Positions 6,606-29,157 of a stretch of 64,000 bases of DNA are shown in pieces (the first letter of the stretch is position 1; each line of letters opens with the position of its first letter). The stretch lies in the NCBI GenBank assembly GCA_022844345.1, contig JALHLU010000003.1, forward strand, positions 186,001 to 250,000, read 5' to 3'. A program made the position numbers and the translations under genes. The DNA comes from Hyphomonadaceae bacterium (lineage in GTDB: Bacteria > Pseudomonadota > Alphaproteobacteria > Caulobacterales > Hyphomonadaceae). The notes beneath the pieces are model-generated. The model worked only from the letters and a program-made list of their open reading frames with translations. It ran no database searches and was not told the origin of the DNA.

Positions 6606-6755
6606 TCCCCTCTCCCCAGGCAGATCACACTGAAATGCACCCGATCGGGCGGCCAAATGCAAGCGCCTGCCCGCCCATGACTGCTGACAGGCCAAGTCAG
6701 CATGTTCAGGCCATGGCGTTTGAATGCCGGCCGCGGGCGCCCTACCTATGCGGCC

Positions 6756-8948
6756 ATGGAATCGGACGATCCCCCAGAAGAAGCAGACCTGCCGGAAGGT
6801 CCCGCCCCGGACCTTGAAGACGAGGCCGCCGACGACCTTCCGCCGGAGATCGAGATGGAACCGGAGGAAATCTCCTCCGGAGTCGATCTTTCCGCCCCCG
6901 ATGCGGCCAAACGGCGGCGGGTGTCAGGGCCGGATGTGATCCGCGACCAGGTGAGCCGCTTGCCCGGCAAGCCGGGCGTCTATCGCATGTTCGGTGAGAC
7001 GGGCGAGCTGCTCTATGTAGGCAAGGCGCGCAACCTGAAGGCGCGAGTTGGCAGCTATGCGAAGATCGGCGGGCAGACGCAGCGCATCGCGCGGATGATC
7101 TCGCTGACGCGGGCGATGGAGTTCGTCGTCACGGGAAGCGAGACGGAAGCGCTGCTGCTGGAAGCCAACCTGATCAAGAAGCTGAAACCGCGCTTCAACA
7201 TCATCCTGCGCGACGACAAGAGCTTTCCCCACATTCTGATCCGCGAGGATCACGAAGCGCCGCAGGCGCTGAAGCATCGCGGCGCCAAGCGGATCAAGGG
7301 GCGCTACTTCGGACCATTCGCATCGGCCGGAGCCGTCGATCATACGCTGGACACGCTGCAGAAGGCGTTCCTGCTGCGCACCTGCACCGACAACATTTAT
7401 TCAACACGTTCGCGGCCCTGCATGCTGCATCAGATGGGGCGGTGTTCGGCGCCGTGCGTGGGGCTGATTCCGCTGGACGAGTATCGCGACCTGGTGCGCG
7501 AGGCGGAGCGGTTCCTCGATGGCGACGCCGAGACCCTGCAGGAACAATTGTCGGCGCAGATGGAGCGCGCGGCGGCGAACATGGACTATGAGCGCGCGGC
7601 CGGCCTGCGGGACCGCATCCGCGCGCTGTCTTCCGTGCGCCAGAGCCAGAGCGTCAATCCGGACGGGCTGGTTGAGGCGGATGTTTTCGCGATCCATTCC
7701 GAGGCCGGCGCATCGGCCGTGCAGGCGTTCTTCTTCCGCGCGGGGCAGAACTGGGGCGCGACCGTCTGGTATCCCAAGCACGACCGCGACGACACGTCGG
7801 CGGAGGTGCTGACCGCGTTCATCGCGCAGTTCTACGACGACAAGCCCGTGCCAAAACTCATCCTCCTAAATCACGAGATCGAGGAAGAGGAGCTGCTGAC
7901 CGAGGCGCTGGAGATGAAGGCGGAGCACAAGGTCGAGATCCGCACGCCCAAGCGCGGCGAGAAGCGCGAGATCGTGGCGCAGGCGCAGCTGAACGCGCGC
8001 GAGGCGCTGGGCCGCAAGCTGGCCGAGACGCAGAGCCAGCAGAAGATTTTCGCGGCGGTGCAGAAGGTGTTCGATCTGCCCGAACCGCCGAAGCGCATCG
8101 AGGTCTACGACAACAGCCACATCATGGGCACGAACATGGTGGGCGGCATGGTGGTGGCGGGGCCGGAAGGCTTCGAGAAGAACAGCTATCGCAAGTTCAA
8201 CATCAAGGACCAGGAAATCGAACCCGGGGACGACTACGGCATGATGCGCGAAGTCATGCGCCGAAGATTTGGCCGGCTGAAGAAGGAGTGGGAGGAGTTG
8301 AACGCTGTCTTGCCTCCACCGGCTCAGCCGGGGGAGGTGGATGGCGATCCGAAGGATCGGCAGACGGAGAGCGTCTCTTCGTCTGAGCAAAACCTGTCGA
8401 CCCCCTCCGTCTCGTCGCTGCGCGACGATCGTCAAAGCGATGCTTTGACCCCGCCAGTCCTGCGGACTGAGGGAGGCAAGAGGCCGGACGCTTGGCCTGA
8501 TCTTGTGTTGATCGACGGCGGACTTGGCCAGCTATCAGCGGCGAAGGAAGCCATCGAGGCTGTTGGCTTCAAACCGGGCGAGCTGAACCTGGTCGCTATC
8601 GCGAAGGGGCCCGACCGCAATGCGGGGCGCGAGCAGTTCTTCCGCCCCGGCCGCGCGCCGTTCCAGCTGCCGCCGAACGATCCGGCGCTCTACTACCTCC
8701 AACGCCTGCGCGACGAGGCGCACCGCTGGGCCATCGGCGCGCACAGGGCCAAGCGCGCAGCGGCGATCAGCGGCCAGAACCCGTTGGATGAAATCACCGG
8801 CGTTGGCGTGCGCCGCAAGAAGGCCCTGCTCCACCGCTTTGGCTCGGCGAAGGGCGTGAGCAACGCAACCGTGGCCGACCTGCAGACCGTGGAAGGCGTC
8901 AATGCCGCGCTAGCGCAGCGCATCTATGATCACTTCCGGGGCGGGTGA
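6756..8948 (+). CDS. uvrC: UvrABC excinuclease subunit C
   Basis: About 730 residues, longer than the usual 600-630. It makes the dual incisions of nucleotide excision repair. The order is an acidic N-terminal extension of about 50 residues (chosen start MESDDPPEE; a start 18 codons upstream is possible), a GIY-YIG nuclease domain (PGKPGVYRMF...LLYVGKARNLKAR), a cysteine cluster region, a UVR motif (MDYERAAGLRDRIRAL), the RNase H-like UvrC domain (VYDNSHIMGTNMVG, VLIDGGLGQL) and a C-terminal double helix-hairpin-helix (LDEITGVGVRRKKALL). A 55-residue low-complexity insert, about residues 519-575, is encoded by a palindromic element at 8310-8479 and lies just before the DLVLIDGG core strand. 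Confidence 0.93.
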   Translation: MESDDPPEEADLPEGPAPDLEDEAADDLPPEIEMEPEEISSGVDLSAPDAAKRRRVSGPDVIRDQVSRLPGKPGVYRMFGETGELLYVGKARNLKARVGSYAKIGGQTQRIARMISLTRAMEFVVTGSETEALLLEANLIKKLKPRFNIILRDDKSFPHILIREDHEAPQALKHRGAKRIKGRYFGPFASAGAVDHTLDTLQKAFLLRTCTDNIYSTRSRPCMLHQMGRCSAPCVGLIPLDEYRDLVREAERFLDGDAETLQEQLSAQMERAAANMDYERAAGLRDRIRALSSVRQSQSVNPDGLVEADVFAIHSEAGASAVQAFFFRAGQNWGATVWYPKHDRDDTSAEVLTAFIAQFYDDKPVPKLILLNHEIEEEELLTEALEMKAEHKVEIRTPKRGEKREIVAQAQLNAREALGRKLAETQSQQKIFAAVQKVFDLPEPPKRIEVYDNSHIMGTNMVGGMVVAGPEGFEKNSYRKFNIKDQEIEPGDDYGMMREVMRRRFGRLKKEWEELNAVLPPPAQPGEVDGDPKDRQTESVSSSEQNLSTPSVSSLRDDRQSDALTPPVLRTEGGKRPDAWPDLVLIDGGLGQLSAAKEAIEAVGFKPGELNLVAIAKGPDRNAGREQFFRPGRAPFQLPPNDPALYYLQRLRDEAHRWAIGAHRAKRAAAISGQNPLDEITGVGVRRKKALLHRFGSAKGVSNATVADLQTVEGVNAALAQRIYDHFRGG
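8310..8479. repeat. in-frame palindromic insertion element inside uvrC
   Basis: A 170-base stretch bounded by perfect 8-bp terminal inverted repeats (TTGCCTCC at 8310-8317, GGAGGCAA at 8472-8479). It consists almost wholly of hairpins with three-base loops: CCGGC-TCA-GCCGG (8319-8331), CGATCC-GAA-GGATCG (8345-8359), a nested CAGACG...CGTCTG (8361-8385), TCGTCGC-TGC-GCGACGA (8412-8428), GTCAAAGC-GAT-GCTTTGAC (8431-8449) and AGTCC-TGC-GGACT (8456-8468). It keeps the uvrC frame open and encodes a polar, serine/proline-rich linker. This is the design of protein-coding palindromic elements such as those described in Rickettsia. Confidence 0.8.
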
Positions 8949-8991: not shown

Positions 8992-9243
8992 ATGACCCGT
9001 CTCACAGACGAACAGCTACTTTCCCGGATCACGGCCAGCCCTGCGAAGATGCATGGGCGCGCGGCCATTCGCGGCATGCGGATTCGCGTCGTCGATATCC
9101 TAGACAATCTCGCACATGGAGCGACGCGGGAAGAAATCCTGAAGGCGTTTCCTGAACTGGAACCAGAGGATATCGACGCGAGCCTGCTTTACGCCGCGCG
9201 GATCATGTCAGGCGTGAAGGTTCAGCCCCAGGCGGCTGAATGA
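8992..9243 (+). CDS. DUF433 family antitoxin-like protein
   Basis: An 83-residue protein of the DUF433 type: a short winged-helix-like fold with the motif of an ITASPAKMHGRAAIRGMRIRV segment, then ILDNLAHGATREEIL and FPELEPEDIDASLLYA. DUF433 proteins are commonly found beside PIN-like DUF5615 proteins and are thought to be VapB-like antitoxins. The next gene overlaps by four bases (ATGA), so the two are translationally coupled. The start is the ATG directly behind a good promoter. A longer frame reaching back into uvrC is less likely. Confidence 0.8.
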   Translation: MTRLTDEQLLSRITASPAKMHGRAAIRGMRIRVVDILDNLAHGATREEILKAFPELEPEDIDASLLYAARIMSGVKVQPQAAE

Positions 9244-9581
9244 GGTTCCTGGTCGATCAGAACCTTCCTTCGATGCTTTGCGGCTGGCTCGAAGCCCAAG
9301 GTCACGCTGCCGAGCACATCCGGCTTCTTGGCATGCCTGACGCGACCGACGAGGAAATCATACATCGGGCGCGCGAAACGGCTGCTGTCCTGCTGACACG
9401 CGACAAGGACTTTGCGCCGCGCGCAGGCGGCAGCACGCTTGCCACATGGTTCCAGGTCGTCTGGGTTCGCCGCGGCAACGTTGCCAACGACATGCTGTTG
9501 GAGATGATGGAGCGCTTCTGGCCAAACGTGGTCGCGGCCCTTGAACGCGGCGATCCCGTGGTCGAGATCGGGCAGGATTGA
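9240..9581 (+). CDS. DUF5615 PIN-like toxin candidate
   Basis: A 113-residue protein opening MRFLVDQNLP, with a central HRARETAAVLLTRDKDFA segment. These acidic positions (D6, E..., D-K-D) match the PIN-like DUF5615 family, whose members are suspected RNases paired with DUF433 proteins. It overlaps the DUF433 gene by four bases. The role as toxin is inferred from family and pairing; no activity can be read from the sequence alone. Confidence 0.75.
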   Translation: MRFLVDQNLPSMLCGWLEAQGHAAEHIRLLGMPDATDEEIIHRARETAAVLLTRDKDFAPRAGGSTLATWFQVVWVRRGNVANDMLLEMMERFWPNVVAALERGDPVVEIGQD

Positions 9582-28512: not shown

Positions 28513-29157
28513 ATGCGCAGGACTCTGAGGCTCTTCACCGCCGCTGCCTTCATGGCGGTGAGCTCCGGTCTTGCGCCGTCCGGCATGGCCCAACCGTCGA
28601 CGCCGGATTTTGGCGATGACGCCAGCACATGGTCCAACGATGGCGAGTGCGACGACAAGCGCTTTGCCGGACCCGGCATGACGGCGACGATCCTGCTGGA
28701 TGAAGATGTTGGCCACGACGCCACCGATTGCCGCGACGCCTGGCGCGCGGGCAAGCTGCAGCTGGCTTCCATTTCCGGTCCTGACCGTGACGGAGACGTG
28801 CCTGATTTCGGCGATGACGAGAGCGAGTGGGCCTTCGACGACGAATGCGATGATCCGCGCTTTGTCGGCCCCGGCATGACCGATACGCCGCTTCTCGACG
28901 AAGACATCGGCCACGACGCCACCGATTGCCGCGATGCGTGGAAAAACGGCGAGTTGCGCCTCATCGGCACGGAACGCGACAGCGACGTTCCCGATTTCGG
29001 TGACGACGACAGCGAGTGGGCCTTCGACGACGAGTGCGATGATCCGCGCTTTGTCGGCCCCGGCATGACCGAAACCCCGCTGCTGCGCGAGGACATGTAC
29101 CACGACGCCACGGATTGCCGCGAAGCGTGGGAAAACGGCGACATCGAACTGCGTTGA
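28513..29157 (+). CDS. secreted protein of three tandem acidic repeats
   Basis: 214 residues: a signal peptide to about residue 26, then three repeats of about 54 residues starting at residues 31, 97 and 160. Each repeat follows the pattern PDFGDD-x-S-x-W, D-x-ECDD-x-RF-x-GPGMT, a DED acidic turn, and HDATDCR-x-AW. The two cysteines per repeat (EC and DC) probably pair, and the Asp clusters look able to bind calcium. Repeats 2 and 3 are almost identical even at the DNA level, which points to a recent internal duplication. I know no characterised function for this repeat. Confidence 0.7.
   Translation: MRRTLRLFTAAAFMAVSSGLAPSGMAQPSTPDFGDDASTWSNDGECDDKRFAGPGMTATILLDEDVGHDATDCRDAWRAGKLQLASISGPDRDGDVPDFGDDESEWAFDDECDDPRFVGPGMTDTPLLDEDIGHDATDCRDAWKNGELRLIGTERDSDVPDFGDDDSEWAFDDECDDPRFVGPGMTETPLLREDMYHDATDCREAWENGDIELR

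Follow-up and report, generated by a model that had tools for sequence, protein, structure and literature searches.

A head-to-head pair of REP-like palindromic repeats carried in frame within uvrC of a Hyphomonadaceae bacterium

Repetitive extragenic palindromic sequences (REPs) of the GTAG and CGTC types were surveyed in 2013 by the Di Nocera group, whose account describes intragenic REPs in many species and finds over half of these REPs as dimers or in groups (PMC3733652). As described there, CGTC REPs are most frequent in Alphaproteobacteria and no dedicated transposase was found for them; many REPs lie in repair genes including UvrABCD, and the authors suggest that flexible linkers tolerate REPs (PMC3733652). 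The presence of REPs in uvr genes is therefore already known. The palindromic elements of Rickettsia (RPE) are 105-146 bp long with 12-bp inverted repeats, and the 2007 review that treats them lists further palindromic element families outside Rickettsia (PMC2229807). Here we describe an insert in uvrC within a 64,000-nucleotide stretch of DNA from a Hyphomonadaceae bacterium (the window), where a sequence-only reading had proposed a protein-coding element of the Rickettsia type. That reading considered such elements little studied outside Rickettsia, a view that has to be given up, since the survey (PMC3733652) and the review (PMC2229807) both cover them in the descriptions cited above.

The carrier gene, uvrC (6702..8948, plus strand), was taken from the ORF list and encodes an excinuclease ABC subunit C of 748 aa. 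It matches NCBIfam TIGR00194 and PRK00558 above cut-off together with the Pfam models GIY-YIG, UVR, UvrC_RNaseH, UvrC_RNaseH_dom and HHH_5, PF08459 and PF22920 being among the accessions matched. The insert spans 8308-8481, so that the coordinates proposed earlier (8310-8479) were right to within a few bases, and its reading frame is open throughout, as had also been claimed. The six hairpins announced from the letters are borne out by the DNA centroid fold of 8304-8485 (the insert and its edges), with a folding z of -4.41 as DNA and -5.43 as RNA; in neither case did any of 200 dinucleotide shuffles reach equal stability. The terminal inverted repeats had been put at 8 bp but are perfect over 10 bp (8308-8317 and 8472-8481). 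GCTG precedes the insert and GGCC follows it; as these bases differ, no target-site duplication is visible, and the short-linker relatives, being diverged, offer no exact empty site. The tandem-repeat scan of the window listed no array at the insert; at 28795-29141 the window holds a 189-bp tandem repeat (1.8 copies, 88% matches). The idea that the insert is a known RNA family was rejected, as no Rfam family reached its gathering score there and the two matches below that score were at chance level. Directly after uvrC, at 8992-9581, lie a DUF433 gene and then a DUF5615/PIN-like gene, a pair that we take to resemble toxin-antitoxin modules.

Both halves of the insert are recognised by a covariance model (R1) trained on 32 units of a dispersed repeat, none of them from uvrC and all classed as intergenic. 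Unit 1 (8308..8376, minus strand; 51.9 bits, E 1.7e-9) runs antisense to the gene and comprises the head CTCCGTC, hairpin B, the CCACCTCCC box, hairpin C and the tail GGAGGCAAGA. Unit 2 (8398..8481, plus strand) stands head to head with it in the sense direction, and its score is modest (31.8 bits with E 4.6e-5 by the covariance model, 18.7 bits by a plain profile). Its CCACCTCCC box is replaced by an extra hairpin (8431..8449, GTCAAAGC / GCTTTGAC, pair I10) that is seen in the centroid fold and is absent from the eight unit 2 copies compared with it. Between the two heads the centroid fold forms a central hairpin (8361..8385, CAGACGGAGAG / CTCTTCGTCTG, pair I5, 91% complementary). The left terminal inverted repeat, TCTTGCCTCC (8308..8317), is the complement of the unit 1 tail, while the right one, GGAGGCAAGA (8472..8481), is the unit 2 tail itself and recurs identically as the tail of class A units elsewhere; the two form pair I4, 10 nt with 100% complementarity. 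The insert is thus two class A units placed head to head, and its terminal inverted repeats are their tails.

The anatomy of the unit was drawn from 46 copies in stretches of the window's own genome (G000) and of G008, where it reads CCCCCTCCGTC, hairpin B, CCACCTCCCCC, hairpin C and a tail, the latter being GGGAGGCAAG in class A and GGGAGGAC in class B. The 43 distinct units with a tail divide into 23 of class A, 18 of class B and 2 that belong to neither. Hairpin B is variable, with 31 distinct sequences in the 46 units. The unit also has a second hairpin (CCTCCC/GGGAGG) and a conserved tail. The CGTC of the head is invariant in 32 aligned units, though the pattern that collected them demanded it; it also occurs in uvrC unit 2, which this pattern had not picked. 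CCA begins the CCACCTCCC box in the same 32 units, again as the pattern demanded, and is kept in uvrC unit 1 and replaced in unit 2 of G000. Depending on the frame, 20 to 30 of 32 units are free of stop codons in each of the six frames, where composition alone predicts about 64% (20).

We followed the family across genomes with two tools. A pattern combining the head CTCCGTC with the CCACCTCCC box was run on 37 genomes, with a reversed-pattern control. It matched exactly at 16 places in G000, where the control matched at 2; G003 gave 175 matches, G005 69 and G008 37, and G001, G002 and G014 gave none. Counts with R1 at E <= 0.001 are lower bounds, 150 first-look candidates having been scored per genome (150 of 4648 in G000): at least 26 units in G000, 150 in G003, 101 in G005, 50 in G004, 48 in G008, 29 in G011, 22 in G013, 13 in G012, 7 in G007, 6 each in G001 and G006, and 2 in G010, the 14 congeners spanning 0 to at least 150. 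The whole-genome search suggested by the sequence-only reading thus did turn up dispersed copies. Within the window itself, core words of 8 and 10 letters showed no enrichment over shuffles, and the family is visible there only with a longer structured model. Using the G011 insert as a nucleotide query against the window's own genome gave a poor count, with 18 matches at E <= 1 of which 12 were 16-21 nt long, hence the use of patterns and a covariance model.

Where the copies lie was assessed in 75 stretches picked for holding matches (15 from G000, 20 from G008, 20 from G003, 14 from G004 and 6 from G005). A profile search placed 138 units there outside the window, and a simple codon-usage gene finder called 118 of them intergenic, 12 at a predicted gene edge and 8 internal. 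The internal ones sit in six predicted genes: three thiC, one PDH E2 and two without a family match (L193 and L259) that may not be genes. According to family models and a frame check, thiC of G000, G008 and G004 carries an in-frame unit in its C-terminal part, past the ThiC model. The thiC loci are L163 488-2410 and L186 2-772 (cut), both on the plus strand, and L275 1787-3766 on the minus strand. The gene for pyruvate dehydrogenase E2 (PDH E2) of G000 (L168 1215-2462, minus strand) has one in frame between the lipoyl and E3-binding domains, and a uvrD-type helicase gene of G008 (L180 2-2521, plus strand), found with the pattern only, has one in frame between the helicase and tudor domains. 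Unit 1 of uvrC and the copies in thiC and the uvrD-type gene are read antisense, in two frames, and the sense direction is that of uvrC unit 2 and of the PDH E2 copy. With reading on both strands and in more than one frame, the copies fit DNA that spreads and is tolerated wherever it is readable, rather than a spreading peptide.

UvrC was found in all 61 genomes of our set, and a family-wide search gave matches in 102 of 105 genomes. For the linker survey 30 loci were fetched from the 61 genomes, a set weighted to close relatives; among the 28 that could be measured the linker is 4-15 aa long in 12 and 28-137 aa in 16, in frame and a multiple of three in every one. In 14 named loci chosen among 80 returned, 13 linkers have 4-24 aa and one has 59 aa. 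The earlier statement that most UvrC proteins lack the loop stands for the 12 short linkers and for 13 of the 14 named loci, and falls for the 16 of 28 with longer ones. In the window's genus 11 genomes have linkers of 28-116 aa, whereas the congeners G002, G009 and G014 have 8-10 aa, against 64 aa in the UvrC of the window; among the candidates scored with R1 there was no unit in the genomes of G002 and G014 and at least 2 in G009. The insert is therefore present in some relatives only. An insert shared by all relatives, with no other copies in the genome, had been named beforehand as the mark of an ordinary linker, and what we found differs on both counts.

With R1, two units are recognised in uvrC of the window, G011, G013, G003 and G007, whose contig stops inside unit 2. 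Two are also recognised in G023, the second weakly (E 0.016), and one each in G008, G001 and G006. R1 found no unit in uvrC of G005, G010, G012 and G004, so that it is the tree that links these to the repeat by descent; the first three have linkers of 28-44 aa. In a tree of 41 UvrC proteins with the linker removed, the 11 long-linker genomes and G007 form one clade (support 100/99), G023, which belongs to another genus, falls outside G009, and four genomes of the genus g3 are far off; many of the genomes compared are metagenome assemblies. Parsimony on this tree needs three changes. Constraining G023 to join the 12-genome clade is not rejected (p-AU 0.22), so that two or three insertions would be possible, and constraining it to join G009 is not clearly rejected either (p-AU 0.089).

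The same loop holds other sequences elsewhere. In the genus g3 (L017, L027, L029 and L032) the UvrC linkers reach 86-137 aa at the same place, two of the four contain the peptide WIPASAGIGG, and R1 recognises no unit there even when E values as high as 5 are admitted. Pieces of the longest of these inserts, which folds with z -3.71, recur outside uvrC in all four g3 genomes. Judged by sequence, the g3 inserts are of a different make from the repeat of the window. In uvrC of G004 (L013, 2965-3570) the loop contains part of an RND transporter, read in frame (PF00873, residues 59-147 of the stretch, E 8.7e-12). A search for its nucleotide donor gave no match in the rest of G004 and none in G000 and G008.

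The position of the loop in the protein differs from that first assigned, which was between the nuclease half and the RNase H-like half. UvrC_RNaseH_dom (PF08459) covers residues 454-678, and the insert interrupts this RNase H-like domain. In solved UvrC C-terminal halves the loop is short, a few residues only: query positions 529 to 598 correspond to chain positions 78 to 82 in 3c65, and 524 to 598 to 78 to 87 in 8b0q. An AlphaFold2 model from 21 sequences gives pLDDT below 50 for residues 540-590, between a helix (511-533) and a strand (601-605), although the model is weak as a whole (mean pLDDT 68.3, pTM 0.41) and residues 1-72 and 160-257 are also below 50. Six pairs, which share genomes and so are not independent, gave dN/dS values of 0.23-2.75 for the linker against 0.03-0.09 for its flanks, the linker being higher in each pair. 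The amino acids of the linker are thus far less constrained than the remaining UvrC and not clearly neutral, with the frame maintained; in four pairs the ratio is 0.23-0.57, below 1, so that some constraint or misalignment remains.

We are confident that the insert is a head-to-head REP-type dimer that entered a tolerant RNase H loop as DNA, in an ancestor of part of the genus, and has since stayed in frame under weak amino-acid constraint. The dimer would have come to lie between the helix and the catalytic strand, perhaps by transposition or by copying through an enzyme acting in trans, and a single insertion may serve the whole 12-genome clade. Because units are often stop-free in any frame, an insertion of a multiple of three into a surface loop gives a longer disordered linker, with which UvrC presumably still works.

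Food for debate is whether the insert was recruited, selection keeping the peptide or its length because UvrC activity is altered, a speculation that the 2013 survey offered for repair-gene REPs (PMC3733652). In the 12-genome clade, each of the 11 members measured has a linker of at least 28 aa, the uvrD-type gene of G008 also carries a unit, many REPs lie in repair genes by the survey's account (PMC3733652), and linker dN/dS stays below 0.6 in four of the six pairs. Yet the linker exceeds its flanks in all six, the linkers of the clade vary from 28 to 116 aa with differing peptides, and thiC and PDH E2, which are not repair genes, carry units too. Recruitment hence appears improbable to us.

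We rate just as low the chance that the hairpins are kept for a function of mRNA or DNA structure, for instance in protein binding, pausing or the stability of the transcript. The stability of the RNA fold would suit such a function, as would the pairing of hairpin B. In seven unit 2 copies its arms match at 46 of 49 positions within a copy and at 229 of 294 with the arm of another genome, 46 being reached in 139 of 20000 shuffles; these arms were picked out by eye among nine displayed copies of unit 2, with G003 and G023 omitted as no matching stem was readable, the six unit 1 copies lie outside this count, kinship is uncorrected and G001 and G006 are near-identical. Against it, four uvrC genes of the clade (G004, G005, G010 and G012) have no unit recognised by R1, no Rfam family reaches its gathering score, and complementarity can come without selection, through template switching or unit replacement. 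An ordinary fast-evolving uvrC linker, palindromic by chance, is the least credible explanation and was rejected: the linkers without a recognisable unit in G005, G010 and G012 and the long unrelated ones of g3 at the same place would agree with it, but R1, with its intergenic training units, picks out both halves of the insert, which speaks strongly against it, none of the 200 shuffles folds as well, and three congeners have only 8-10 aa.

With a REP-type dimer that entered as DNA as the preferred explanation, the changes in its stems raise a further question. The exact hairpin of unit 2 in G003 occurs within that genome only in uvrC, and elsewhere in G000 (1), G008 (2) and G005 (5); that of G013 is found in its own uvrC and in no other of 15 genomes. 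We therefore rejected the copying of a unit into uvrC from the same genome, as neither hairpin is present elsewhere in its own genome. Being exact in three congeners, the G003 hairpin is a common subtype, which speaks for replacement there and against rewriting in place. Template-switch correction, which has been discussed for other coding palindromes (PMC6649704), is possible for the uvrC stems. More speculatively, foreign DNA could have landed repeatedly in the UvrC loop, with two different repeat families arriving in at least two lineages and a transporter fragment in one genome. Some of the palindromes there, instead of simply decaying, would then have been rewritten in place, both arms together, as by template-switch correction, in a coding stretch where the amino acids are of little importance. 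We hold this combined picture to be doubtful, and the shared landing site and the stem change at one place to be worth following.

Taken across the genus, one repair gene offers a natural series from a full pair through a half pair and an unrecognisable linker to a short linker and replacement by a transporter fragment, and this series shows a dispersed repeat turning into protein sequence. It also makes an old question testable, namely whether repair genes tolerate such repeats or selection keeps them, since UvrC that has the loop can be compared with UvrC that lacks it. A literature search for 'repetitive extragenic palindromic', 'in-frame' and 'uvrC' together found nothing, and from this look the repeat family and the UvrC loop as a landing site seem little described.

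Among known systems, the CIR repeats of Caulobacter and Brucella are likewise alphaproteobacterial intergenic repeats with two stem-loop arms, but they carry GANTC (PMC2229807), which occurs in 1 of 32 units of our family and not at all in the uvrC insert. CGTC-tagged REPs come closer: they share CGTC beside the stem, and are mostly intergenic, often paired and sometimes in genes including uvr (PMC3733652). Their CCA after the stem is seen here too, though in units gathered by a pattern that demanded it, and it is replaced in uvrC unit 2 of G000. As published, they have CGTC (or TGTC/CCTC), a 3-nt tail that is mostly CCA, a stem of 8-9 bp opening with A-T at its first and second positions, and a loop of 4-5 nt (PMC3733652). 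Here stems are mostly 7-8 bp (26 of 46 units; 8-9 bp in 15) and loops 3-4 nt (3 nt in 25, 4 nt in 16), two A-T pairs open the stem in 3 of 46, and a second hairpin and a conserved tail are added. Given the second hairpin and the rarity of the A-T start, we did not file the unit in any of the four published CGTC families; it is best read, by comparison with published descriptions (PMC3733652), as a CGTC-REP-like family of its own. With the RPE it shares palindromic structure, terminal inverted repeats, dispersal and both intergenic copies and in-frame copies in conserved genes (PMC2229807). The Rickettsia-type label of the sequence-only reading thus stands for a dispersed palindrome carried in frame and not for the anatomy, which, compared by description only (PMC2229807), differs in being a head-to-head pair of GC-rich, two-hairpin units of about 70 nt with 10-bp repeats, from a separate REP-like family. 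By analogy, our best reading is that the insert would work like the Rickettsia elements.
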